Shown here: in pieces, positions 3,981-29,254 of the stretch | Numbering within the stretch: the first letter of the stretch is position 1 | Layout: each line of letters begins with the position of its first letter | Origin: Sulfurovaceae bacterium | GTDB lineage: Bacteria; Campylobacterota; Campylobacteria; Campylobacterales; Sulfurovaceae | Length of the DNA stretch: 64,000 nt | Reading direction: 5' to 3' | Assembly: GCA_028714675.1 (NCBI GenBank) | Contig: JAQTLV010000002.1 | Location: 124,001 to 188,000 of the forward strand | Notes under the pieces: generated by a model | The model's input: only the letters and a program-made list of their open reading frames with translations | Databases searched by the model: none | What the model was told of the DNA's origin: nothing | Position numbers and translations under genes: made by a program

Positions 3981-4016
3981 TGTATTAGATTATATTAATA
4001 ATTTAAGGAGTATATG

Positions 4017-4403
4017 ATGGCTGTAATGATAACAGACGAATGTATCGCTTGTGATGCATGTGCAACAGAGTGCCCAGTAGCTGCTATATTGGACGAAAAA
4101 AATGAAAAAAATCCAAATGATAATAAATACTATGTTAAACCAGAATCTTGTGTAGAGTGTGTTGGGCATTCAGATTCGCCAAGATGTGCCGAGGCTTGCC
4201 CAACTGAAGGTGCTATCGTATGGGATATGCCGTACATTGCAGAGTATGAATCATACTTTTTAGAAGGACAAGATGGTGGCAAATATAACATTAGGGTTCA
4301 TAACAAAAAAGGTTTAATGTTACCATCAGTTAAAGAACAGCCTTACAATGAGTCAGTTGCCATAGGGCAAAGACAGTCTCACGAAAATGTAAGCACTTTT
4401 TAA
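4017..4403 (+). CDS. 2[4Fe-4S] ferredoxin, nif type (first copy)
   Basis: A 128-residue bacterial-type ferredoxin, probably an electron or cluster donor for nitrogenase or NifB. Cluster motif one is CIACDACATECP near the N-terminus. Motif two has the nif-ferredoxin form CVEC-x8-C-x3-CP. A conserved tail of about 60 residues follows. ATG 4017 is chosen over ATG 4014 because AAGGAG ends 6 bases before it. It is followed 10 bases later by a paralogue that shares the PTEGAIVWDMPY and YNIR-H-KKG segments. It is the first gene of an operon ending in nifB, under the sigma54 site at 3965. Confidence 0.9.
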   Translation: MAVMITDECIACDACATECPVAAILDEKNEKNPNDNKYYVKPESCVECVGHSDSPRCAEACPTEGAIVWDMPYIAEYESYFLEGQDGGKYNIRVHNKKGLMLPSVKEQPYNESVAIGQRQSHENVSTF

Positions 4404-4413
4404 AGGATAAATT

Positions 4414-4794
4414 ATGGCAGTTATGATTACTGATAGTTGCATAAGTTGCAATTCTTGCATAGACGAATGTCCAGCAACCGCTATAGTTAGTGCAGATGAA
4501 AGTCCTATAGAATTTGCAGATATTGTTTATGTTAAACCTGAAAAATGCATAGAGTGTGCAGATAGCACTATGCCAAAATGTGCTGATGCTTGTCCAACTG
4601 AAGGCGCTATTGTATGGGATATGCCTTATGTGGAATTGTATGATGATTATTATATGCAAGGACATAATGAAGGTAGATATAACATTAGAATACATCCCAA
4701 AAAAGGAATATTTTCTCCCAAAAACAATCCTAAACCTTTTAGAGAAAATATATCTACAGAAGATAGAACTGCGCATCAGCCAGTTATTATATAA
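4414..4794 (+). CDS. 2[4Fe-4S] ferredoxin, nif type (second copy)
   Basis: A 126-residue paralogue of the preceding ferredoxin. Motif one is CISCNSCIDECP. Motif two is CIEC-x7-C-x3-CP, one residue shorter between the Cys pairs than in the first copy. It shares the long C-terminal tail with the upstream copy, so the pair is a tandem duplication that has since diverged. nifB starts 10 bases after its stop. FdxN-type ferredoxins next to nifB are known to support NifB-co synthesis, and one or both copies may do so here (inference). Confidence 0.9.
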   Translation: MAVMITDSCISCNSCIDECPATAIVSADESPIEFADIVYVKPEKCIECADSTMPKCADACPTEGAIVWDMPYVELYDDYYMQGHNEGRYNIRIHPKKGIFSPKNNPKPFRENISTEDRTAHQPVII

Positions 4795-4804
4795 GGAGAA
4801 TAAA

Positions 4805-6250
4805 ATGAGTTGCGCATGTGGTACTTCAAGTCAATTTGATCCAAATGATTCTAGGGCTTTGGAGATACAAGAAAAAATAAATAATCATCCTTGTTATAGT
4901 GAAGGAGCTCATCAACACTATGCTAGAATCCATGTGCCAGTTGCTCCAGCTTGTAATATTCAGTGTAATTATTGTAATCGTAAATATGATTGTTCCAATG
5001 AAAGTCGTCCAGGCGTAACAAGTGGAAAATTAACACCCGAAGAAGCAGTTAAAAAAGTTCTTTTTGTCGGAGGAGAGATACAACAGCTTTCCGTTGTAGG
5101 CATTGCAGGCCCTGGTGATGCTTTGGCAAATCCAGCTAAAACTTTCGAAACATTTAGGCTTTTGCAAGAGAAGGCACCAGATTTAAAACTTTGTTTATCT
5201 ACAAATGGATTAAGACTTTCAGAGTATATAGATGAGATAGTTAAATACAATGTTGATCATGTCACAGTAACTATAAATACTGTTGATGCCACAGGTGAGA
5301 TAGGTTCAAAAATATATCCATGGATATATTATGGGCACAAAAAAATAAAAGGTAAAGAGGGTGCTAAAATATTGCTTCAAAAGCAATTAGAGGGTATCAA
5401 AATGCTTACAGATAGAGGTATTTTAGTAAAAGCAAATTCTGTACTTATCCCAGGGGTTAATGACAAAGATTTACCAAATGTTGCTAAAAAACTAAAAGAG
5501 TTAAATGTATTTTTGCACAATATAATGCCTATTTTATCATCTCCTGAATTTGGAACAAAATTTGGGCTTGATGGTGTGCCAAGTGCAACAGATCAGCAAG
5601 TTATGGAAGCACAAGAGGCTTGTGGAATGGATATGAAACTTATGAGCCATTGCAGACAATGCCGTGCTGATGCTGTTGGTCTTATAGGAGAAGACAGAGG
5701 AGAAGAGTTTACCAAAGAGAGCTTCACATCTATGGATTTTGAACAATTAGAAGAAAAGTACAATATCAAATCAAGAGAAGAGTTTCATGATAAAATAGAG
5801 ATTTGGAGAAGTGCTTTAGAAAAAGCAAATCAAAGAATAAAAATAGAACAAGCAACAAAAGAACAATTAAGTTCAACAGGCATTACAAAACTTGTAGCAG
5901 TAACAACTGCTGGAGAAGGTCTTATCAATTTGCACTTTGGAAGTGCAAAAGAGTTTTTGATATATGAAGCTGGTGATAAAGCTATAAAGTTTATTATGCA
6001 TAGAAAAATAGAAAGTTCGTATTGTAGTGGGCCTGAAAATTGTCATGGAAATAACCCAATAGAGGAAATAAAACAAACTCTTAAAGATGTTGATGTTTTA
6101 TTGACTGAAAAAATTGGAGATTGTCCTATGGAAGAATTAAATTCAATCGGCTTAGTTTGTGACGATAGCTATGCCCTGCAACCAATTGAGAAATCTGTAC
6201 ACGATATCGTGAAAAAACTATTTTTCAAAGACGAGAATGAAATAGGATAA
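4805..6250 (+). CDS. nifB: NifB, FeMo-cofactor precursor synthase
   Basis: A 481-residue radical-SAM enzyme that builds NifB-co, the 8Fe-9S-C core of FeMo-co. The start is ATG 4805, with AAGGAG 7 bases upstream; the open frame that runs back to 4556 lies inside the ferredoxin gene. It has an N-terminal Cys motif (MSCACG), the SAM-cluster motif CNIQCNYC (residues 50-57), the HCRQCRADAVG motif near the end of the SAM domain, and a fused C-terminal NifX/NafY-like domain beginning near TKLVAVTTAGEG with the LHFGSAKEF signature. It has the full two-domain form. Third gene of the sigma54 operon. Confidence 0.97.
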   Translation: MSCACGTSSQFDPNDSRALEIQEKINNHPCYSEGAHQHYARIHVPVAPACNIQCNYCNRKYDCSNESRPGVTSGKLTPEEAVKKVLFVGGEIQQLSVVGIAGPGDALANPAKTFETFRLLQEKAPDLKLCLSTNGLRLSEYIDEIVKYNVDHVTVTINTVDATGEIGSKIYPWIYYGHKKIKGKEGAKILLQKQLEGIKMLTDRGILVKANSVLIPGVNDKDLPNVAKKLKELNVFLHNIMPILSSPEFGTKFGLDGVPSATDQQVMEAQEACGMDMKLMSHCRQCRADAVGLIGEDRGEEFTKESFTSMDFEQLEEKYNIKSREEFHDKIEIWRSALEKANQRIKIEQATKEQLSSTGITKLVAVTTAGEGLINLHFGSAKEFLIYEAGDKAIKFIMHRKIESSYCSGPENCHGNNPIEEIKQTLKDVDVLLTEKIGDCPMEELNSIGLVCDDSYALQPIEKSVHDIVKKLFFKDENEIG

Positions 6251-8455: not shown

Positions 8456-8713
8456 ATGGAAGATGTTGGCAATAAAATCATTTGTGATTGCGGCCAAAAG
8501 ACTATAAATGAAGCAGTGCAAATTTTTAGCCAAACAGATCTTCCATATAAAAAAGCAAAGAAATTAGTCACTGAGTGTAATAAAACTTGTTGCAGAAGAC
8601 CATTGATGAGGCTATTTGATATGATAAAGTTTGGCGAAGTTGACTATGAAGAGATTGACTTTTTGATCGAGCAAAGAAAAATAAAAGATATGGAGATGGA
8701 AAATGAAGAATAA
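8456..8713 (+). CDS. Small Cys-motif protein, BFD-like
   Basis: An 85-residue protein with Cys-x-Cys near the N-terminus (IICDCGQKTINEA) and CNKTCC about 33 residues later. This spacing resembles the [2Fe-2S] domain of bacterioferritin-associated ferredoxin, which uses CxC and CxxC, although here the second pair is C-x3-CC. It may hold a small Fe-S cluster. The tail is charged (EQRKIKDMEMENEE). It overlaps the LRR gene by 11 bases. The family call is tentative. Confidence 0.5.
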   Translation: MEDVGNKIICDCGQKTINEAVQIFSQTDLPYKKAKKLVTECNKTCCRRPLMRLFDMIKFGEVDYEEIDFLIEQRKIKDMEMENEE

Positions 8714-9701
8714 TGAATTGATAGATTTTTCTATATGGATAAAGTCAAATGGACTCAATTCTGTTATCCCAACAGACCTAGAAACTCTAAAAAAACTTTC
8801 TGTTTTAGATTTGACCAAACAAAAACTAAGAGAGTTGCCATCTAGTATCGGCTCTTTGGAAAATTTAACAGTTTTAAAGATATCTGGCAATAGATTAAAG
8901 AAGTTGCCCGATAGTATCTGTAATCTTAAAAATCTTAGAAATTTACAATGTGAAAATAATCTATTAGAAGAGTTACCAAAAGAGTTTGGTTTGTTGGATT
9001 CTTTGTTGGTATTAAATCTCAACGGAAATCATCTAAGAGAATTGCCAAAAAGTTTTTGTAAGCTAACAAAATTAACAAGGCTAACAATAGCTGCCAATTT
9101 ACTCCAAGAAATAGATGATGAGTTTAAAAATCTCAATAAATTACTGTATCTTTCACTCGATACGAATGACCTAAAACAATTACCAGATGTTTTTGGAAAA
9201 ATGAAAGCACTATATTATCTTGATCTCTCATACAATAAACTAACAACAATTCCAGATTCTATCTCACAAATAGATGAACTCGAGACTTTGCTTCTAGAGG
9301 GCAATCACATATCGAATCTACCTTCATTGGAATCTCATGATATGCTCATAAAGCTCAATCTCAATAATAATGAGCTTTGGGAGCTTGATTTTGATTTGAG
9401 TAAGCTCGAAGATTTACAAATATTGACATTGGACAATAACCAACTCGAATCACTCCCACAAAGTTTATGTAAGTTGAAAAAGTTGAGACATCTAAGCACG
9501 GCAGGTAATTTATTGATAAATTTACCTGAGTGTATAGGAGAGCTTGAAAATCTAATAGAACTTGATGTGGAAGATAATCTTTTGCATTCACTTCCAGCAT
9601 CTTTTGTAAATTTAACAAATTTAAAAGTTTTATACATTGATGGCAATAATGGAGTGCAAAAACCAGAAATCAAATCTTTGGAATATTGTGATGTTGAGTA
9701 A
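8703..9701 (+). CDS. Leucine-rich-repeat protein of the nif cluster
   Basis: A 332-residue protein made almost wholly of LRR units of about 23 residues with the form L-x-x-LP-x-x-x-x-x-L-x-x-L-x-x-L-x-L-x-x-N (for example SVLDLTKQKLRELPSSIG). About twelve units are visible. There is no signal peptide or membrane segment, so it is cytosolic and probably a protein-binding scaffold. It is the last gene of the nifV operon. Its last codons are imperfectly repeated at 11572-11600, beyond an insert. The partner is unknown. Confidence 0.85.
   Translation: MKNNELIDFSIWIKSNGLNSVIPTDLETLKKLSVLDLTKQKLRELPSSIGSLENLTVLKISGNRLKKLPDSICNLKNLRNLQCENNLLEELPKEFGLLDSLLVLNLNGNHLRELPKSFCKLTKLTRLTIAANLLQEIDDEFKNLNKLLYLSLDTNDLKQLPDVFGKMKALYYLDLSYNKLTTIPDSISQIDELETLLLEGNHISNLPSLESHDMLIKLNLNNNELWELDFDLSKLEDLQILTLDNNQLESLPQSLCKLKKLRHLSTAGNLLINLPECIGELENLIELDVEDNLLHSLPASFVNLTNLKVLYIDGNNGVQKPEIKSLEYCDVE
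9661..9700. repeat. Left copy of LRR-gene-end direct repeat
   Basis: The end of the LRR gene. Bases 9672-9700 match 11572-11600 with two mismatches in 29. A further AACCAGA at 9661-9667 is matched at 11563-11569. Confidence 0.8.
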
Positions 9702-12956: not shown

Positions 12957-13433
12957 TTACCCAAAAAATTTCTTAACGAGTGAGCTAAGCCACTTGTCTT
13001 TTTTTGCTTTTTCATTTGGGGAAATATTTTTTTTGAGTAATGCTTTTTGAACTATATCTTTATAATCCGCATCATCTCTTTGGATATGATTTATAAGCCA
13101 CATTTGAAGATCCATTACCAACTGTTTTGTGATATCTTCTCCATCTTCAAATCTTTGTTTAAAAAATGCAACTCTCTCTACAAAAGCCTCGTGTACTTTT
13201 ATGTGTGGTGCAAGCATAGGATAACCAGCTTCTTCCATTAGCTCTTCCTCGAACGAGAAGTGCGATATCGTATAATCAACAAGTTTTATAAGAACATCTT
13301 GAACTCTTCGTCTATTTTCAAATGATCTATATGCTCCAGCAATACCAAGTTCATTTATATATTCTATAAGTCGTTTATGTTGATGATCAATTACTTCTAT
13401 ACCAACTGAATATTTAGATTCCCATGTCCACAT
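12957..13433 (-). CDS. Bacteriohemerythrin
   Basis: A 158-residue di-iron O2-binding protein. The ligand set is complete: DHQHKRL near residue 17, SHFSFEEELM, HIKVHEAF, and WLINHIQRDDADY. A basic tail of about 30 residues (KKDKWLSSLVKKFFG) follows the four-helix bundle. It lies between nifE and nifN on the same strand, 62 bases after nifE, so it is probably transcribed with nifE. Hemerythrins bind O2 and could buffer or deliver O2 around nitrogenase (inference from position). Confidence 0.93.
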   Translation of the reverse strand: MWTWESKYSVGIEVIDHQHKRLIEYINELGIAGAYRSFENRRRVQDVLIKLVDYTISHFSFEEELMEEAGYPMLAPHIKVHEAFVERVAFFKQRFEDGEDITKQLVMDLQMWLINHIQRDDADYKDIVQKALLKKNISPNEKAKKDKWLSSLVKKFFG

Positions 13434-13495: not shown

Positions 13496-14839
13496 TTAAT
13501 TCTCCCAAGGAGCTTTTGTTCCTACTATGCTAAATACTGGGTTATTAAGAGCATATGTTACATCTTTCGCTAGATTAATGAGACCACTATATGCACCATA
13601 ACTTACTTTTTTTTCTTGATTTACATCAACAAAAGCAATTTTTTTCTTGATAGCAGTATAAAGACTTCTTCCACCTGCTAGCAATATATCAATATTGTGT
13701 TCATCGATTAATTTCGCTTGCTCATTTGGCGGCGATTTCATTAGAATCGGAACATAACTTTTGGCAATCTCTATATCTTCTAGCGTGGCTTTGGCTATAC
13801 TTGTTGCAACTACTTCTATACCTATATCTTGAAGAGCAGAAGCTATCGACCATGATTTGTTCCCGCCTGTGTTTAAGATAGCTTTTTTCCCATTTAAAAT
13901 TTTTCTATATGAAAGAAGAGAATTTTCTAATTTTTCTTCCTCTTCTTTTATAATCATTTTGGCTTTTTTTATCAATGCTTCATCACCAAAAGCATTTACA
14001 ATACTCATAATGGCATTACTTGTATCTCGTTTACCATAAAATGATATAGATATATATGGAATATTGTATTTCTCTTGCATTTTACGACATAGAGTTATAA
14101 GAGATTTTGCACATACTATAACATTTAGTTTTGCTCTATGTGCCATTTGTATATTTTCTATTCTTCCATCACCTGCTAAAGTTGAAATTACTTTTATCCC
14201 AATACGCTCTAAGATAGGAATGTATTGCCACATATCTCCAGTAACATTATATTCGCCTATTAGGTTGATACCGTATGGATGTATCTCTTCCGGTTCTCTT
14301 GTACCTATCAAATGATCCAGTACAGCTTCACCGCCTAATCTTGAACCTAGATTTTTATTTCCAACAAAACCAGGAGAGTGGACTACTATTATTGGAGTAT
14401 TGTATTTTTTTTCTATTCTAGCACATACATTATCCATATCATCACCTATCATGGCAGTAACACATGTTTCATATACAAAAATAGCTTTTGGATCTTTATT
14501 TGCTATGATGTATTCTAAACTCTCTTCTAATTTTTTGTTTCCACCAAAAATAATATCATTTGTTGTAACATCAGTACAATATCCCAAAACTGTATTATTT
14601 TCACCTTTAAAACTTGTCAAAGTAGCACGAGTTTCCCACGATGCACCAAGACATGTCGCTGGAGAATGCACCAAATGAACAGCATCGGCATATGGAAAAA
14701 GAGAAATTTGAGCTCCCTCAAATGCACATCCTCCATTTGTAGCACCTGGTTTTGGTCTATCACAACTTACTTTTTTTGTTTTATTATGAGAGCAAGCGGA
14801 TTCACTTAATAGTTCTTTGATAAGTTTTCTATTTACCAT
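13496..14839 (-). CDS. nifE: NifE, FeMo-co scaffold subunit
   Basis: A 447-residue NifD-related partner of NifN. The start is at 14839, with AAGGAG 8 bases upstream; an in-frame ATG at 14878 is not preceded by a good site. Motifs seen: GGCAFEGAQISLFP (with Cys), HSPATCLGASWETR, DVTTNDIIFGG, and VVHSPGFVGNKN-GSRLGGEA. The FeMo-co-anchoring His of NifD is not expected here. The gene is transcribed divergently from cowN. Confidence 0.95.
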   Translation of the reverse strand: MVNRKLIKELLSESACSHNKTKKVSCDRPKPGATNGGCAFEGAQISLFPYADAVHLVHSPATCLGASWETRATLTSFKGENNTVLGYCTDVTTNDIIFGGNKKLEESLEYIIANKDPKAIFVYETCVTAMIGDDMDNVCARIEKKYNTPIIVVHSPGFVGNKNLGSRLGGEAVLDHLIGTREPEEIHPYGINLIGEYNVTGDMWQYIPILERIGIKVISTLAGDGRIENIQMAHRAKLNVIVCAKSLITLCRKMQEKYNIPYISISFYGKRDTSNAIMSIVNAFGDEALIKKAKMIIKEEEEKLENSLLSYRKILNGKKAILNTGGNKSWSIASALQDIGIEVVATSIAKATLEDIEIAKSYVPILMKSPPNEQAKLIDEHNIDILLAGGRSLYTAIKKKIAFVDVNQEKKVSYGAYSGLINLAKDVTYALNNPVFSIVGTKAPWEN

Positions 14840-14866
14840 CACATACTCCTTTAATGTAATTTTATA

Positions 14867-14882
14867 TACATATTTCATTCCT
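14867..14882 (-). promoter_or_regulatory. Probable sigma54 promoter of nifE
   Basis: Minus-strand AGGAATGAAATATGTA has GG and TG at -24/-12 spacing, 28 bases before the nifE ATG. It is weaker than the other sites. Its -24 half forms a palindrome (ATTCC-TCAAA-GGAAT) with the -24 half of a plus-strand site. Confidence 0.5.
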
Positions 14883-14932: not shown

Positions 14933-15229
14933 ATGAGTAGAGATAGATATGTGACATTTGAAAATATTGATTGTTATCATAATGCAGTAGAGGTGCTTGA
15001 TGCGATGCATGAACTTTTTACTAAAAATACTAAGGCAAAAAATGAATTTTGGGAGATATTTTTAGACAATATTGATCCAGACTATCACGAAGTATATGCC
15101 AAAAATGGTCGCAAAGATATCTTGTATCATGTATGTTCTAATGTATTTTATATCTCAGATTTGTTTGAAGAGTATAATTTTGAAAAAGGTATTAAGTTAC
15201 TTGAAATAGCTGAAATGGAGTGTTGCTAA
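14933..15229 (+). CDS. cowN: CowN, protects nitrogenase from CO
   Basis: A 98-residue protein. The N-terminus (RYVTFENIDCYHNAVEVLDA), the central FWEIFLDNIDP and the Cys-Cys C-terminus (LEIAEMECC) match CowN, which binds nitrogenase and allows N2 fixation in the presence of carbon monoxide in other diazotrophs. The gene ends in a TAATG overlap with the Sel1-NifU gene. Confidence 0.88.
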   Translation: MSRDRYVTFENIDCYHNAVEVLDAMHELFTKNTKAKNEFWEIFLDNIDPDYHEVYAKNGRKDILYHVCSNVFYISDLFEEYNFEKGIKLLEIAEMECC

Positions 15230-15966
15230 TGAGTCATATGGAAGCATTAAAGGCGTATAGAAATGAAGATTATAGTTTGGCAAAAGAACTTTGGATAGAT
15301 GAAACAGACAAAGGCAATGACCAAGCTATGGTTAATTTAGGATTACTTTATCTTAAAGGCGAGGGAGTGCAAAAAGATTTTGCATTGGCAAAAGAGTGGT
15401 TTGAAAAAGCGATGAAGTATGAAAATTCTTCCGCATATTATAATCTAGCATTAATGTATCAAAGCCATATAGGAGTTGAAGAGGATTTAGATAAAGCATT
15501 GTTGTATTTTCAAAAAGCCCATAAACTAGGACACACCAATGCATCTTTTCGTCTTGGGATTTGGCTTTTAAAAGATAGAAGTGATGTAGAAAAAACAAAA
15601 GAGGGATTTGAAGCTATGCTTCATGCTGCAAAAAATGGTCATGCTATGGCAAAAATGCAGATGGGAGGAATAGAACATAAATTAGATAAAAAGAAAAATT
15701 TGAATATCTCTTTTAGAAAAAAACTTTATGAAGAAAAAAAAGAAATTATAGAAGATGCATTAAACAGATACATTAGACCAATCCTTATAAAAGATGGTGG
15801 GAATATAGTACTTATAGATTTTATAGATACCATAGATGCAGAGATAAGATTAGCATATCAAGGCAACTGCGCTGGATGTTCTATGGCTACTACCGGTACA
15901 TATAGTATCATTTTTGATACTTTTAGTAAAGTTATTGATGAAAATATTTTGGTATATGTAATATGA
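15229..15966 (+). CDS. Sel1-repeat protein fused to a NifU C-terminal (Nfu) domain
   Basis: A 245-residue protein. ATG 15229 overlaps the cowN stop (TAATG). Residues 1 to about 150 are four Sel1-type helical repeats (for example AMVNLGLLYLKGEGVQKD and AYYNLALMYQ-x-GVEEDLDKA). Residues about 165-245 are an Nfu domain with the cluster motif NCAGCSM (Cys214, Cys217), which in dimers holds a [4Fe-4S] cluster for delivery. The usual NifU N-terminal scaffold is absent. The fusion suggests an Fe-S carrier with its own target-binding arm. No separate nifU is in the window, so this may be the dedicated carrier (inference). Confidence 0.82.
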   Translation: MSHMEALKAYRNEDYSLAKELWIDETDKGNDQAMVNLGLLYLKGEGVQKDFALAKEWFEKAMKYENSSAYYNLALMYQSHIGVEEDLDKALLYFQKAHKLGHTNASFRLGIWLLKDRSDVEKTKEGFEAMLHAAKNGHAMAKMQMGGIEHKLDKKKNLNISFRKKLYEEKKEIIEDALNRYIRPILIKDGGNIVLIDFIDTIDAEIRLAYQGNCAGCSMATTGTYSIIFDTFSKVIDENILVYVI

Positions 15967-16340
15967 AAATAGCATTTGCTTCTAAACAAAATGTATATAT
16001 AGATGAGCATTTTGGATGGTGCGAAAGATTTTTTGTATATGAAGTTAGTGGTGATGGTTTTTCTTTTGCCCGCGAAATTGACTCTTCTTTAAAATATGAA
16101 AATGAAGGTGAAAAACTTTTATATAAAATAGAATGTATAGATGCTTGCGACATAGTATATGTTTTGCAAATTGGTCCAAAAGCAGCAAATATGGTTCAAA
16201 GTGCTGGAATTTTTCCATTGAAATCTTCAAGCGAAACAGAAAGCATCGAAGATGCATTACAAAAAATCCAATATCTTATAAATAACAATCCACCATTGTG
16301 GCTCAAAAGGATACTGCTTAAGGATTCAGTTAATGAATAA
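15963..16340 (+). CDS. NifX/NafY-like cofactor-binding protein (first)
   Basis: A 125-residue single-domain member of the dinitrogenase Fe-Mo cofactor biosynthesis family. Signatures: DEHFGWCERFFVYEV, then GPKAANMVQSAGIFPLK and a C-terminal NPPLWLKRIL. The family binds FeMo-co precursors such as NifB-co and the VK-cluster. It overlaps the Sel1-NifU gene by 4 bases and the flavodiiron gene by 8, so the three are translated together. A close paralogue lies at 17615. Confidence 0.88.
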   Translation: MKIAFASKQNVYIDEHFGWCERFFVYEVSGDGFSFAREIDSSLKYENEGEKLLYKIECIDACDIVYVLQIGPKAANMVQSAGIFPLKSSSETESIEDALQKIQYLINNNPPLWLKRILLKDSVNE

Positions 16341-17553
16341 TGTAGCAATGGCGGATAAAGATGTTTATTATGTAGGCGTAAGTGATAGCGATATAAGGAC
16401 ATTTGACATTATTATGAAGACATCAAATGGGACAACATATAATGCATATCTCATAAAAACTACAGATGGCTTTATCTTGCTTGATACAGTAAAAGAGGAA
16501 TTTTCAAATATATTTTTTGAAAAAATAGAATCTATATGTTCATATGATGAGATAAAGTATATTGTAATGCATCATCTCGAGCCCGATCATTCTGGGGCAT
16601 TGCCTGAATTAGTAAGAAGAGTGCCAAGCGCTAAGATTTTTATATCTCCTATGGCTACAAGTATGTTTAAATCAATTGCTAAAATTGACAATATGGATTT
16701 TGAAACAATTTGGACAAACAAAAAGATAACACTAGGAGACAAAACTCTTGAGTTTTTGAGTACACCAAATTTGCATTGGCCAGAAACAATGAGCAGTTAT
16801 CTAGTGGAAGACAAAATACTCTTTAGTGGAGATGTTTTCGGAAGTCATTATTATGATAGTAGGGTTTTTGATGATTTGGTTGGAGATTTTGATTATTCAT
16901 TTAAATATTATTATGATCATATCATGAGACCATTTAAAAGTGATGTTTTAAATGCTCTTAAATTGTATGATAAACTAGATATAAAAATCATTGCACCACT
17001 ACATGGACCAATTATTCGCTCAAACCCACAAAAATACATATCTCTCTATCGTCAATGGAGTACAAAAGAATCTAAACATTATGGTAAAAAAATAATATCA
17101 ATATTTTATGTCACAAGCTATAAAAATACACAAGAGATGGCACAAAAGATGTATGAGGGAGCAGAAAATATCGATAATATTGTGGCAAATATCTATGATT
17201 TAAGTGCACTAGATGAACATAGTATGTTAAATATATTAGAAGAGAGTACAGGTGTATTGATTGGAGCTCCAACTATAAATGGAGATGCACCTAAGCCAGT
17301 TTGGGATTTGCTTGGTTGTATGATGCTTTTAGAGAAAAAAGGCAAAGTAGGTGGAAGTTTTGGTAGTTTTGGGTGGAGTGGAGAAGCACCAGATATGATA
17401 CATCAAAGAATGAAAAGTTTAAATTTTAGAGTCCCATTAAATCCACTAAAAGTAAAATTGATACCAACAGAAAATGAGCTTGAAGAGTGTTATAGCTTTG
17501 GTAAAGAGTTTGGAGAAATTGTTAATGGTAAAATGATAGAAATGACACTCTAA
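16333..17553 (+). CDS. Flavodiiron protein (FprA family)
   Basis: A 406-residue A-type flavoprotein that reduces O2 to water and/or NO to N2O. The N-terminal metallo-beta-lactamase domain carries the di-iron motif HHLEPDHSG, then FSGDVFGSH and APLHGP. The C-terminal flavodoxin-like domain begins near ISIFYVTSYKNTQ and includes FGSFGWSGEAP. There is no rubredoxin extension. Embedded in the nif cluster, it most likely removes O2 near nitrogenase (inference). A sigma54 site for the next operon starts 11 bases after its stop. Confidence 0.92.
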   Translation: MNNVAMADKDVYYVGVSDSDIRTFDIIMKTSNGTTYNAYLIKTTDGFILLDTVKEEFSNIFFEKIESICSYDEIKYIVMHHLEPDHSGALPELVRRVPSAKIFISPMATSMFKSIAKIDNMDFETIWTNKKITLGDKTLEFLSTPNLHWPETMSSYLVEDKILFSGDVFGSHYYDSRVFDDLVGDFDYSFKYYYDHIMRPFKSDVLNALKLYDKLDIKIIAPLHGPIIRSNPQKYISLYRQWSTKESKHYGKKIISIFYVTSYKNTQEMAQKMYEGAENIDNIVANIYDLSALDEHSMLNILEESTGVLIGAPTINGDAPKPVWDLLGCMMLLEKKGKVGGSFGSFGWSGEAPDMIHQRMKSLNFRVPLNPLKVKLIPTENELEECYSFGKEFGEIVNGKMIEMTL

Positions 17554-17614: not shown

Positions 17615-18001
17615 ATGGAAGCTGTATCTAATAACTATGAAAATGGTGCAATTAAAGTTGCATTTGCTACTAATGATACTAAAAATATTGATGCACACTT
17701 TGGTGGTGCAAAACAATTTTACATATACAATGTTACTTCAACAAATAGTGATTTATTTCATGTTGTAAATATTGAAGCAAAAGACACAGATGCAACTATT
17801 GCGAAACTCCATGGCGTAGATATAGTATATTTTGTTGATATAGGACCTATTGCTGCAGCAAAAGTTATCAATAGTGGGATATTTCCTATAAAATATAAAG
17901 ATATAGTAAATATAGATTCAGAAATAGATAAGCTTAAAAATATGCTGGGTACAAATCCACCACCATTTATCAAAAAGATTATTGATAGAAAGGAAGCTTA
18001 G
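17615..18001 (+). CDS. nifX: NifX, FeMo-co precursor carrier (second)
   Basis: A 128-residue NifX. The N-terminus IKVAFATNDTKNIDAHFGGA has the family's HFG motif. The middle is DIGPIAAAKVINSGIFPIK and the end is NPPPFIKKII. It is followed 2 bases later by the DUF269 gene, the usual NifX partner, which makes this copy the better nifX candidate of the two. AAGGAG lies 8 bases upstream of the ATG. Confidence 0.92.
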   Translation: MEAVSNNYENGAIKVAFATNDTKNIDAHFGGAKQFYIYNVTSTNSDLFHVVNIEAKDTDATIAKLHGVDIVYFVDIGPIAAAKVINSGIFPIKYKDIVNIDSEIDKLKNMLGTNPPPFIKKIIDRKEA

Positions 18002-18003
18002 TA

Positions 18004-18432
18004 ATGGAGAATGTATTTATTGAAACATTAGTTGGTCAAGTTAGAGCTTTGGATCAATTTGGAACATGGGCAAACAAAAGCAATGAAGATATTTTGGTAG
18101 AGAAATACATCAGAACAAAAGAAGATCTAAAAAATATTCCAGTAATTGCAGATATAGACGAGATGCAAATACAAGACATTCGTCTGATTTTTCAAGCCTT
18201 AGCTTTAGCGTTTGAACAAAAAACAGGTGTTATGTGTAGTGTTGTAATGGAAATGAGCCATGAAGGTTTTGGTAGAGCGGTTGTAATAGCCAATAAGATT
18301 GTAGTGGTAAATAAATTCTTTAAAGATGCTCATAGGTATTCATTTAGAACTTATGATGAGTTAGTTGTGAGTGGAAATCAAATGTTAGATGATGCAATTA
18401 ATATATATAACAAATATCAAGCAGTAGCTTAA
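18004..18432 (+). CDS. NifX-associated protein (DUF269)
   Basis: A 142-residue member of the DUF269 family, found next to nifX in most nif clusters. Visible features are FIETLVGQVRALDQFGTW at the N-terminus and EMSHEGFGRAVV near the centre. The biochemical role is not established. It starts 2 bases after the nifX stop. Confidence 0.9.
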   Translation: MENVFIETLVGQVRALDQFGTWANKSNEDILVEKYIRTKEDLKNIPVIADIDEMQIQDIRLIFQALALAFEQKTGVMCSVVMEMSHEGFGRAVVIANKIVVVNKFFKDAHRYSFRTYDELVVSGNQMLDDAINIYNKYQAVA

Positions 18433-20810: not shown

Positions 20811-22040
20811 ATGAAAAATAGACTTTTATTTAAACAAAAACAATCGCTAAATATTTCTTTGAAGCTTTGGCTGCCAATACTTCAATCATCAATACAAGAA
20901 CTTGATGATATTTTTAAAAAATATAGCTATGAAAATCCATTTTTAGAATGTAGTTGTAAAAATTACTCTTCTGATAATAATCAAAAACAAAATTTTATAG
21001 AAAATACATTATTGCATGAAGAATCTTTATATGATGTGCTTTTAGAACAAATTACCTCACCATTATTTCCAACACCAAATTCGCAAAAAGTCGCTCATGA
21101 AATACTACTTGATATTGATGATAGAGGTTATTTTGATGGAGATATTGATGAAATTGCAAAAAAATGCAATGTTTACAAAGAGTTTGTAGAGAATATACGG
21201 CAAAGATTTGCCTATCTTGAACCTGCAGGCGTTGGAGCAAAAGATTTACAAGAAGCATGCGAGTTTCAACTACTGCAACTAGATCTCGATGATGAGCTAA
21301 ATAAACTTGTTTCTAAAATGATTCAAAACTTCAAAACACTTGATAAGTACTATAAACATCATCGTTTTAATGAAGCTATGAATATTATTAAAGGTTTTAG
21401 ATTTTCGCCATCAGCAGATTATATGGAAGAGGAAAAAGAAATAATCCCAGATTTTTTTGTAGAAGTGGGCGATGATATAAACATCAAAATCAACAACGAT
21501 AGCTATCCGGATATTGTGGTTAATGATCCGTTTAATTCCAAAAATGAAGAATTGCGTTATCAACTCAAGGAAGCTAGAGATTTGGTTGGTTTGTTGGAGC
21601 TTCGTAAATCTACACTTTATAAACTTGTTTTGATTATTGTTGAAAAACAAATCGGATTTTTTATAGGTGGAGAGCTCAAACCTCTTATTATGAAAACAGT
21701 TGCAGACGAGCTTGGTTTCGAGGAATCAACAATTTCAAGAGCTGTTTCAAATAAATACATAGAGTGCTCTCGTGGAATTTTTGCTCTAAAACATTTTTTT
21801 ACAAATGCTGTTTCTAAAAATTTATCTTCTTCTGAGATAAAAAACTTTATAAAACAACTTATTGAAAATGAATCTCGTGATATTCCATTGAATGATGATG
21901 AGATTTTAGAAAAAATAGAAAGTCGTTTTAATGTAAAAATGGTTAGAAGAACTATAACAAAATATAGAAAACTATTAAACTTGCCATCTTCAAAAGAGAG
22001 AAAGAAACTTTATAAAATGGATATAGAATGGACAATTTAA
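20811..22040 (+). CDS. rpoN: RpoN, sigma54 factor
   Basis: A 409-residue sigma54. Region I is at the N-terminus (LFKQKQSLNISLKLW, then IQELDDIFKKYSYENPFLE). The core-binding region follows, then the HTH, and a C-terminal RpoN box reading VRRTITKYRK, where the consensus is ARRTVAKYRE. Lying between nif operons it is probably devoted to them, but I cannot tell whether the genome has another rpoN for flagellar genes. A hairpin covers its translation start. It overlaps the following gene by 13 bases. Confidence 0.93.
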   Translation: MKNRLLFKQKQSLNISLKLWLPILQSSIQELDDIFKKYSYENPFLECSCKNYSSDNNQKQNFIENTLLHEESLYDVLLEQITSPLFPTPNSQKVAHEILLDIDDRGYFDGDIDEIAKKCNVYKEFVENIRQRFAYLEPAGVGAKDLQEACEFQLLQLDLDDELNKLVSKMIQNFKTLDKYYKHHRFNEAMNIIKGFRFSPSADYMEEEKEIIPDFFVEVGDDINIKINNDSYPDIVVNDPFNSKNEELRYQLKEARDLVGLLELRKSTLYKLVLIIVEKQIGFFIGGELKPLIMKTVADELGFEESTISRAVSNKYIECSRGIFALKHFFTNAVSKNLSSSEIKNFIKQLIENESRDIPLNDDEILEKIESRFNVKMVRRTITKYRKLLNLPSSKERKKLYKMDIEWTI

Positions 22041-22342
22041 AAAGATTAGAAAAAAAAGTAACTATTTTTTTACAACAATATGCAAAAGATGATATATCAA
22101 AAAATAAAATAGCCCCACATTTGGCTCATGTGTCATTGATGATGAATCATTTATATCAAGATTTAGGTTTTGACAATAGAGCACAAATGAATAATTTTAT
22201 GCAAGAACATTTTCCAAAACTTGTAAACATAAAACCAAAAGATAAATTATGGAAAAAATTTATATACGATTCTATAGACGAAGTTGCACCAGCTTGTGAG
22301 TTTTGCCCCGACCAAGATAGCTGTTTTGTGTGTAAAATTTAA
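22028..22342 (+). CDS. Short NifQ-like protein
   Basis: A 104-residue protein. APHLAHVSLMMNHLYQDLGF, then the segment ending FPKLVNIKPKDKLWKKF, and a C-terminal Cys cluster CEFCPDQDSCFVC (C-x2-C-x5-C-x2-C) resemble the second half of NifQ, which delivers molybdenum for FeMo-co. Full NifQ is about 160-190 residues, so this is a minimal form lacking the N-terminal part. It starts within the rpoN end. Confidence 0.62.
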   Translation: MDNLKRLEKKVTIFLQQYAKDDISKNKIAPHLAHVSLMMNHLYQDLGFDNRAQMNNFMQEHFPKLVNIKPKDKLWKKFIYDSIDEVAPACEFCPDQDSCFVCKI

Positions 22343-26821: not shown

Positions 26822-26852
26822 AATAGTCTAGATGTGAAAACTCTAGGCTATT
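26822..26852 (+). terminator. Hairpin between nifK and znuB
   Basis: AATAG-T-CTAGA, a 9-base loop, then TCTAG-G-CTATT, with one central mismatch. It lies 5 bases after the nifK stop and overlaps the last codons of znuB on the other strand. It could serve both directions but lacks a strong T-run. Confidence 0.45.
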
Positions 26853-27670
26853 GTCCCTCGTTTAAATAAATCATATATTTTTTTAATTGTTAAAAATAGT
26901 ATCATTCCAACGACACTAACCAATATAATTGTAGCTCCAGTTGTTAAATTATAATAATAAGATACCATTAAACCAATTATAGTAAAAAGCGTAGAAATCA
27001 ATCCAGACACTATCATCATACCAATTAAGCTATTGGATATTTTTTCTGCTATAAAAACAGGGATAGTAAGCATTGAGATGACCAATATAAGTCCAACAAC
27101 TTTCATGGTCATAACAATACCAATTGATGAAACAACAAGTATTAGGGTATAAAAAAGCCCTACATTAACACCTCTAATATGTGCATATTCGCTATCATAA
27201 GAGACAGCAAGTATATTTCTATATCCAAAAATTACAAAAATCAAAATCATAACAAATACACTAAACATAGTATATAAATCGCTTGTCTCAACAGCCAATA
27301 TTGAGCCAAAAAGATAGCTCATCAAATCAACATTGTATCCAGGTGTCAAATCTATCAGGATAACACCTATAGCCATACCTGTTGCCCAAATTAGACCTAT
27401 GAATGTATCTACTCTCTCTTTGTATTTTAAAGCCAAAAAAGCCATCAATATTGAAGCAGCAACAGCAAATATGGAAGCTCCTAAAAATATAGGCAACCCT
27501 AAGAATATAGCCAAACCTATACCCCCATAAGATGTATGAGCAATTCCACCAGCTAAAAATACCATTCTGTTAACTACAATAAGTGATCCTATTATACCAG
27601 AGATTAAGCTAACTAAAACTCCTGCCATAAGAGCATTTTGCATAAAGTCAACTGTAAAAATTTCAAACAT
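26843..27670 (-). CDS. znuB: Zinc/manganese ABC transporter permease
   Basis: A 275-residue inner-membrane protein of the ABC-3 permease family with about eight hydrophobic segments, and GGIAHTSYGGIGLAIFLG and GYNVDLMSYLFGSIL as family signatures. It forms the channel of the importer encoded with znuC and znuA, overlapping znuC by 8 bases. The metal is likely Zn, judging by the His-rich binding protein, but Mn or Fe cannot be ruled out. Confidence 0.85.
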   Translation of the reverse strand: MFEIFTVDFMQNALMAGVLVSLISGIIGSLIVVNRMVFLAGGIAHTSYGGIGLAIFLGLPIFLGASIFAVAASILMAFLALKYKERVDTFIGLIWATGMAIGVILIDLTPGYNVDLMSYLFGSILAVETSDLYTMFSVFVMILIFVIFGYRNILAVSYDSEYAHIRGVNVGLFYTLILVVSSIGIVMTMKVVGLILVISMLTIPVFIAEKISNSLIGMMIVSGLISTLFTIIGLMVSYYYNLTTGATIILVSVVGMILFLTIKKIYDLFKRGTIA

Positions 27671-28403
27671 TTTTATTCCTAAACATTTGCATCAATTCAA
27701 CTTCACAAAAATGACCATTTTGAGGCGTAGTAGAAAATTTATTTATATTATTGTGTAGTTTTAAAAATTTATTGATGTAGGCAACTTTGTTGGCATAATT
27801 GAGTGTGACAGATATATCATGACTTACTACAACTATAGTTATAAATTTATTGAGCTCTTTTAGTAGCTCATAAATTTGTTTTTGTCCATCGACATCAATA
27901 CTAGCAGTTGGTTCATCCAACAATAAAAGAGTAGGGTGATTGCACAGAGCTCTCGCTATCATAACCCTTTGTCTTTGACCACCAGAGAGAGAACCTATTT
28001 TAGAATTTGCAAATTTTTCCATACCAACTTGTGCCAATGCCCCTAAAGCACAAGCTATCTCATCTTTACCATAACCAAAAATAGGCTTTTTATAACTAAT
28101 ATGACCCATTAGAACAACTTCAATGACTTTGATGGGGAAAGATGTATTTATGTTTGTATTCTGAGGAACATAGCCTATATTTGACAGTTGGAGCGATGGA
28201 TTTTGATTGTTTATGGTTATTTTTCCATTTTTTGTTTCCAAAATCCCTAAAATAAGTTTAAGTAGAGTCGATTTCCCGCCACCATTTGGACCAATGATAG
28301 CTAAAAAGTCTTTTTCATTTAGAGATAAATTTATATTTTCTAATACATTGTTGTCATCATAACTAAATGTTAAATCATCTATCTCTAATATTTTTTTAAT
28401 CAT
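27663..28403 (-). CDS. znuC: Zinc/manganese ABC transporter ATPase
   Basis: A 246-residue ATPase. Walker A GPNGGGKST, signature LSGGQRQRV, Walker B TLLLLDEPTASID, H-loop VVSHD. The start at 28403 overlaps the znuA stop as ATGA; the longer frame extends into znuA. Powers metal import with znuB. Confidence 0.9.
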   Translation of the reverse strand: MIKKILEIDDLTFSYDDNNVLENINLSLNEKDFLAIIGPNGGGKSTLLKLILGILETKNGKITINNQNPSLQLSNIGYVPQNTNINTSFPIKVIEVVLMGHISYKKPIFGYGKDEIACALGALAQVGMEKFANSKIGSLSGGQRQRVMIARALCNHPTLLLLDEPTASIDVDGQKQIYELLKELNKFITIVVVSHDISVTLNYANKVAYINKFLKLHNNINKFSTTPQNGHFCEVELMQMFRNKNV

Positions 28404-29254
28404 TTGTAATGCGCTATAGCCTTTGCAAAACTTATCATATACTCGTGCCAATTATATCCAAGATTTGATATTTTTACTACAGGTATCTTAAGGGTATTTG
28501 ATATCTGTGATGCACTTTTGTCTGAAAATTCAGGTGCTACAAATATAGCTTTTATATGTTCTTTTTTTGCTTTTGACATTAGCATTATTAAATCTTTTGC
28601 TTTTGGTTCTTTTCCTTCTAGCTCTATTGGTAATTGAATTAAGCCATATTCTTTTGCAAAATATCCCCAAGATGGATGAAAAATCATAAATTTACTACCA
28701 TTGGGAGTATTTTTTAAAATAGTTTTTATTTGTAAGTCAGTTTGTCTCAGAGAGTTAACAAGTTTGATATAATTTTTGCTATATACAACTTTATTAGAAG
28801 GATCAAGTCTAATTAGCGTATTTTTAATGTTTGTGGCCATAATGATAAGATTTTTTGGGTTTGTCCACACATGAGGGTCAAGTTCATTTTCATGATGATG
28901 CTCATCTTCGTCTTCATCATGGTGAGCTACCATTTTAATTTTTTTAATGCCAAGTGCACTATCAGCTATCATCATATTTTTATTTTGTGATTTAAATCTT
29001 CCAATCCATGCTTCTTCAAACTCTATCCCAACTGTAAAATAAACTTTCGCTTTTGAAATAATTATCATTTGTGACGGTTTAGGCTCATAAGAGTGTGGGC
29101 TAGCACCAGCTGGTATCATAGCGATTGTATTTACATTTTTGCCACCTATAGCGTCAACAAGAGCTTTTTGAGGCGCTATAGAAGTAGCTATATCAATTTT
29201 TGCAGATAGAAGCGTTGACATTAGCATAAAAGCAATAAATATTTTACTTTTCAT
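28400..29254 (-). CDS. znuA: Periplasmic zinc-binding protein
   Basis: A 284-residue cluster A-I binding protein with a signal peptide (KIFIAFMLMSTLLSAKIDIA). Metal-ligand regions include PAGASPHSYEPKPSQ and DPHVWTNP. Between them lies a His/Asp/Glu-rich loop (HHDEDEDEHHHENE) like that of ZnuA, which points to zinc. First gene of the minus-strand operon. Confidence 0.88.
   Translation of the reverse strand: MKSKIFIAFMLMSTLLSAKIDIATSIAPQKALVDAIGGKNVNTIAMIPAGASPHSYEPKPSQMIIISKAKVYFTVGIEFEEAWIGRFKSQNKNMMIADSALGIKKIKMVAHHDEDEDEHHHENELDPHVWTNPKNLIIMATNIKNTLIRLDPSNKVVYSKNYIKLVNSLRQTDLQIKTILKNTPNGSKFMIFHPSWGYFAKEYGLIQLPIELEGKEPKAKDLIMLMSKAKKEHIKAIFVAPEFSDKSASQISNTLKIPVVKISNLGYNWHEYMISFAKAIAHYK

Follow-up and report, generated by a model that had tools for sequence, protein, structure and literature searches.

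The window, a 64,000-nucleotide stretch of contig JAQTLV010000002.1 from a Sulfurovaceae bacterium, carries among its nitrogen fixation genes a conserved fusion of Sel1 repeats to an Nfu-type domain (sel1-nfu, 15229..15966, forward strand; 245 aa from an ATG start). The fusion seems to be a delivery aid that is specific to nitrogenase building yet not indispensable for it. On balance, we favor its assignment as a nif-dedicated accessory Nfu-type [4Fe-4S] carrier, which would use the Sel1 part as a docking arm and serve the NifB-co/NifX/NifQ branch of cofactor assembly. The evidence comes from its domain architecture, its conservation and distribution in the Campylobacteria, and its genomic neighborhood. 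All coordinates refer to the window unless a locus of another genome is named.

Domain architecture of the fusion protein

The N-terminal part of the protein (residues 2-144; 15232..15660, forward strand) is a Sel1 solenoid made of four helical hairpins and a capping helix. Its tandem repeats are seen with the PF08238 profile (57.7 bits, Pfam gathering cut-off 30.7), in the AlphaFold2 model and in the Foldseek search, where the best matches of the N-terminal part are all Sel1/TPR solenoids. The model, built with 50 homologues, is confident overall (pLDDT 94, pTM 0.87), and its Sel1 part scores pLDDT 91-98 per block. A short linker follows (15661..15726, forward strand), in which F162 is invariant and N159 is conserved in at least 90% of the 50 aligned sequences. 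The Nfu domain (residues 167-245; 15727..15963, forward strand) matches PF01106, the NifU-like family, with 51.9 bits (gathering cut-off 27). In the model its secondary structure elements run helix-strand-strand-helix-strand, the order expected for Nfu, and its structure matches include the solved plastid and mitochondrial Nfu domains of chloroplast NifU-like 2 (2z51) and HIRIP5 (1veh). The cluster-ligand motif is CAGC (residues 214-217; 15868..15879, forward strand), in which C214, G216 and C217 are invariant in the alignment. Thus, the sequence-only reading was correct in describing Sel1 repeats joined to an intact Nfu domain with its CxxC.

The fusion combines the two features of an Nfu-type carrier, namely a domain above the curated cut-off and a conserved CxxC ligand motif, and judged from this domain and motif it probably carries an Fe-S cluster. 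It is neither a NifU nor an NfuA by the respective profiles, each of which aligns with the Nfu part only (TIGR02000, 30.5 bits against a cut-off of 273.3; TIGR03341, 21.7 bits against 269.35), and its N-terminus is Sel1. The ATG start at 15229 shares one base with the TAA stop of the preceding cowN gene (TAATG) and has a GGAG eight bases ahead of it; an alternative GTG start at 15220 appears in the mechanical ORF listing.

Distribution, conservation and link to nitrogen fixation

The sequence-only reading proposed a database search for the Sel1-Nfu pair. A survey of 397 Campylobacteria genomes found full-length or shortened homologues in 53 of them, among these the culturable environmental diazotroph Sulfurospirillum arcachonense (L037). 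A single-sequence search gave 30 close homologues (29 full-length and one shortened) and 18 more distant ones, and five further shortened homologues were found by a profile or partial match. The protein is 244-251 aa long in 33 of 34 close orthologues, and CxGC is present in all 54 homologue sequences extracted from the loci, two short homologues having the variant CSGC. The Sel1 arm is shortened in six genomes, so the full arm is sometimes dispensable. Comparison with near relatives gives a dN/dS of about 0.1 in both halves of the fusion; both are under purifying selection. An assembly artefact, which was considered in the earlier reading, is ruled out by the recurrence of the same fusion, with the same length and neighbor, in dozens of genomes: the Sel1-Nfu fusion is real.

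In a tree of Nfu domains, the 54 Sel1-Nfu domains form a single clade with full bootstrap support, separate from the NifU C-termini and from stand-alone Nfu proteins; the deeper branching of this tree is untrustworthy because the alignment is short (98 columns) and the root was placed at the midpoint. As to a spread beyond the phylum, a single contig scan with short peptide patterns from the fusion sequence gave matches in Campylobacterota only. Occurrence of the fusion on plasmids was considered and rejected: a plasmid search gave five regions with a query coverage of 80% or more, at 25-30% identity and annotated as Sel1/TPR proteins. No published description of a Sel1-Nfu nif carrier was found in the open-licence PMC papers searched, and Sel1 was mentioned in none of those listed by the wider searches, which does not by itself prove that the fusion is unpublished.

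The fusion is confined to nitrogenase genomes with a single exception, and its close orthologues lie in nif loci. A nifD gene is present in 52 of the 53 fusion-bearing genomes, and among the 322 genomes without a nifD match the fusion occurs in one (G368), which itself has cowN and nifQ. The association is strong (Fisher p ~1e-45 before allowing for kinship), although this value overstates it because the relatives are not independent. At least 23 Campylobacteria with nifD do not have the fusion, which is therefore accessory: nitrogen fixation in this class can proceed without it. The presence of NifQ was considered as a discriminator and proved uninformative, nifQ being found in 73 of the 76 genomes searched.

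Genomic neighborhood and coupling to NifX2

In the window the gene order is cowN, sel1-nfu, nifX2, a flavodiiron protein gene, nifX, a DUF269 gene, flavodoxin, a PII-like gene, nifW, nifZ and others, followed by rpoN, nifQ, nifH, PII, nifD and nifK, divergent from nifE (nifH, nifD, nifK and rpoN were assigned by sequence and a nifD match). The cowN gene (14933..15229, forward strand; 98 aa) matches PF20543 with 90.8 bits and NF033689 with 69.1 bits (cut-off 48). The divergent nifE gene (13496..14878, reverse strand) scores 500.4 bits with TIGR01283; scans for sigma-54 and sigma-70 promoters ahead of cowN revealed no clear promoter. Immediately downstream of the fusion lies nifX2, a second NifX-like gene (15963..16340, forward strand; 125 aa), with 63.1 bits for PF02579 and a TIGR02663 score of 101.7 bits, just below the cut-off of 112. 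It overlaps by 8 nt the gene for the flavodiiron protein (16333..17553, forward strand; ODP/MBL and flavodoxin domains, PF19583 92 bits and PF00258 48.6 bits). The canonical nifX and its DUF269 partner gene (17615..18432, forward strand) were assigned by profile matches. The short nifQ (22028..22342, forward strand; 104 aa) aligns with positions 62-158 of PF04891 at 62.8 bits. Two dicluster 4Fe-4S ferredoxin genes and nifB (569.8 bits in its own genome; start not fixed) occupy 4014..6250 on the forward strand.

Several further features of the region were noted. The C-terminal end of the window NifQ reads C-x2-C-x5-C-x2-C; NifQ matches in the class are mostly short likewise, with full-length ones in G117, G395 and G355. 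A hemerythrin gene (12957-13433) lies between nifN and nifE, as it does in some relatives, and a gene for a leucine-rich-repeat protein (8703-9701) is found near nifB and nifV. Genes of a ZnuABC-type metal ABC transporter (26843-29254) are located directly downstream of nifK on the opposite strand.

The stop codon of sel1-nfu and the start codon of nifX2 overlap as ATGA at 15963, an overlap that recurs in 23 of the 34 close orthologues. Within the limits of sequence evidence, this bears out the earlier suggestion of cotranslation with a NifX-like protein. NifX2 is encoded downstream, on the same strand and within 2.8 kb of the fusion, in 52 of 54 loci, the exceptions being one locus at a contig end (L023) and L051. 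In the latter genome (G303), an ABC-transporter pair after a TOBE protein replaces the ferredoxin and NifX2 (L051 1035-2881), and NifX2 is found on another contig. In one genus (g53; L073 6948-8822 and L078 9967-11850), sel1-nfu and nifX2 are separated by an inserted gene of about 625 aa with a likely N-terminal membrane helix. The nifQ gene follows close behind in the same run in many loci. In the distant branch the order is sel1-nfu, usually a TOBE/Mop-like protein, a dicluster ferredoxin, NifX2 and a second dicluster ferredoxin.

The reverse dependence does not hold. In Sulfurospirillum genomes without the fusion, a ferredoxin is followed by NifX2, a flavodiiron protein and finally nifB; in two further nif loci that lack it (G232 and G355), the order is ferredoxin, NifX2, nifB. 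In all of these, the slot of the fusion is taken by the dicluster ferredoxin. An all-or-none module of the fusion and NifX2 is thereby refuted. Therefore, NifX2 is independent of the fusion in some genomes, and the operon itself can manage without the fusion, which seems to have been added to it.

Residue H16 of NifX2 aligns with H35 of the NifX chain in 9ian. In A. vinelandii, H35 of NifX holds one apex of NifB-co during the hand-over by NifX to NifEN (PMC13128457), and the alignment suggests that NifX2 may handle NifB-co. The neighborhood as a whole points to the branch of NifX2, ferredoxin, NifB and NifQ rather than to NifH, with the reservation that adjacency alone cannot separate a client from a bystander, as cowN and the flavodiiron protein also adjoin.

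Proposed role and comparison with known carriers

The absence of nifU from the window, as stated in the sequence-only reading, is true and misleading: elsewhere in the genome there are a full NifU adjoining NifS (C1:49417) and a 92-aa stand-alone Nfu (C1:219169). Replacement of a lost NifU is ruled out by the presence of this NifU-NifS pair. Genomes with nifD contain at least three Nfu-domain genes when they have the fusion and mostly two when they do not. Given these genes and this count, the fusion is an extra carrier and not a substitute scaffold. Accordingly, the earlier notion of a nif carrier with a docking arm fits the conservation, distribution and synteny described above, whereas its implied role as a stand-in for a missing NifU is unsupported. 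In several relatives, a second NifU that is linked to nif lies next to the fusion; in some f7 genomes (L095, L099) the second NifU has CMSC in its Nfu domain instead of CxGC. In the genome of the window, the stand-alone nfu shares a few bases with the gene of a TPR-like protein of 184 aa, which has a weak TPR_6 match; this pair (L001 1465-2294) is a two-gene analogue of the Sel1-Nfu fusion.

Under the favored assignment as an accessory nif carrier, two copies of the fusion would dimerize via the Nfu domains, and a single [4Fe-4S] cluster, loaded by the NifU-NifS system of the cell, would be bound between the two CxGC motifs of the dimer. The Sel1 solenoid may then dock the carrier on a partner in FeMo-cofactor assembly, most likely the co-translated NifX2, or else NifB, the ferredoxin or NifQ proteins, to which the cluster would be passed on. 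It is known that NifU gives [4Fe-4S] to NifQ in A. vinelandii (PMC11605450). A narrower version, in which the fusion is a dedicated loading factor that docks via Sel1 on NifX2 or NifB and supplies [4Fe-4S] for NifB-co or for the Mo-Fe-S cluster of NifQ, is doubtful at present.

The main rival places the protein in a gas-protection operon, as a stress carrier that restores or shields the Fe-S clusters in nitrogenase and in the proteins that assemble it under O2, NO or CO. We consider it unlikely. It draws on the nearby cowN, which serves CO protection (PMC8047169), flavodiiron protein and hemerythrin (between nifN and nifE), on the higher sensitivity of H. pylori nfu mutants to oxidative stress (PMC8144621), and on the comparative O2 stability of holo-NfuA (PMC8593673). 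Neither cowN nor the flavodiiron protein, however, accompanies the fusion as constantly as NifX2 does: only about one in three close orthologues has cowN next to it, neither gene stands beside the fusion in the distant branch, and Sulfurospirillum has the flavodiiron protein without the fusion.

Two other explanations are both quite improbable. The fusion could act as an all-purpose Nfu that serves NifH and the further abundant Fe-S proteins of the nif system, offsetting a weak housekeeping NifU supply and having no particular link to NifX2. The only NifU in the genome of the window is indeed the housekeeping one with NifS, yet several relatives have a second, nif-linked one next to the fusion, and the fusion gene pairs with nifX2, not with nifH. 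Sel1 repeats normally act as scaffolds, and this habit, together with the separate clade and long branches of the Nfu domain of the fusion, would suit a non-carrier in which Sel1 is the working part and the Nfu fold is a structural or regulatory adaptor, for example a scaffold for the NifX2-bound cofactor. Against such a role, both cysteines and the glycine between them never vary, and it is the Sel1 arm that can shrink while the Nfu domain is always kept.

The loading-factor version, if true, would add an assembly step that is undescribed for the model diazotrophs. A practical bottleneck in transferring nitrogenase to plants is how [4Fe-4S] clusters are directed to the FeMo-cofactor assembly proteins from the general scaffolds; a naturally occurring carrier that brings a docking arm of its own and is produced together with a NifX-like chaperone would offer a component ready for testing. 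Such a carrier would also indicate a repeated gain of client-targeting domains by Nfu carriers, of A-type in NfuA and Sel1 here.

By analogy, the closest functional precedent is NfuA of E. coli and A. vinelandii, in which, as in the fusion, the Nfu domain with its CxxC is C-terminal and is preceded by a domain that binds no cluster. In NfuA this N-terminal domain directs the carrier to apo-proteins (PMC8593673), and in the fusion it would likewise target clients. The two differ in that the N-terminal domain of NfuA is a degenerate A-type carrier and that of the fusion a Sel1 solenoid, and in that NfuA is a general carrier, whereas the fusion gene is confined to nif genomes. The C-terminal domain of NifU shares PF01106 and the ligand motif with the fusion, which lacks the IscU-like and [2Fe-2S] domains of NifU and whose Nfu domain falls into a separate clade. 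Stand-alone Nfu proteins, such as HP1492 of H. pylori and the 92-aa Nfu encoded in the genome of the window, have the Nfu fold and motif and work with a NIF-type system; they have no Sel1 arm and lie outside the nif operon. Finally, the Sel1 repeat proteins HcpC (1ouv) and COA7 (7mqz) have the solenoid fold of the N-terminal part of the fusion without an Nfu domain.
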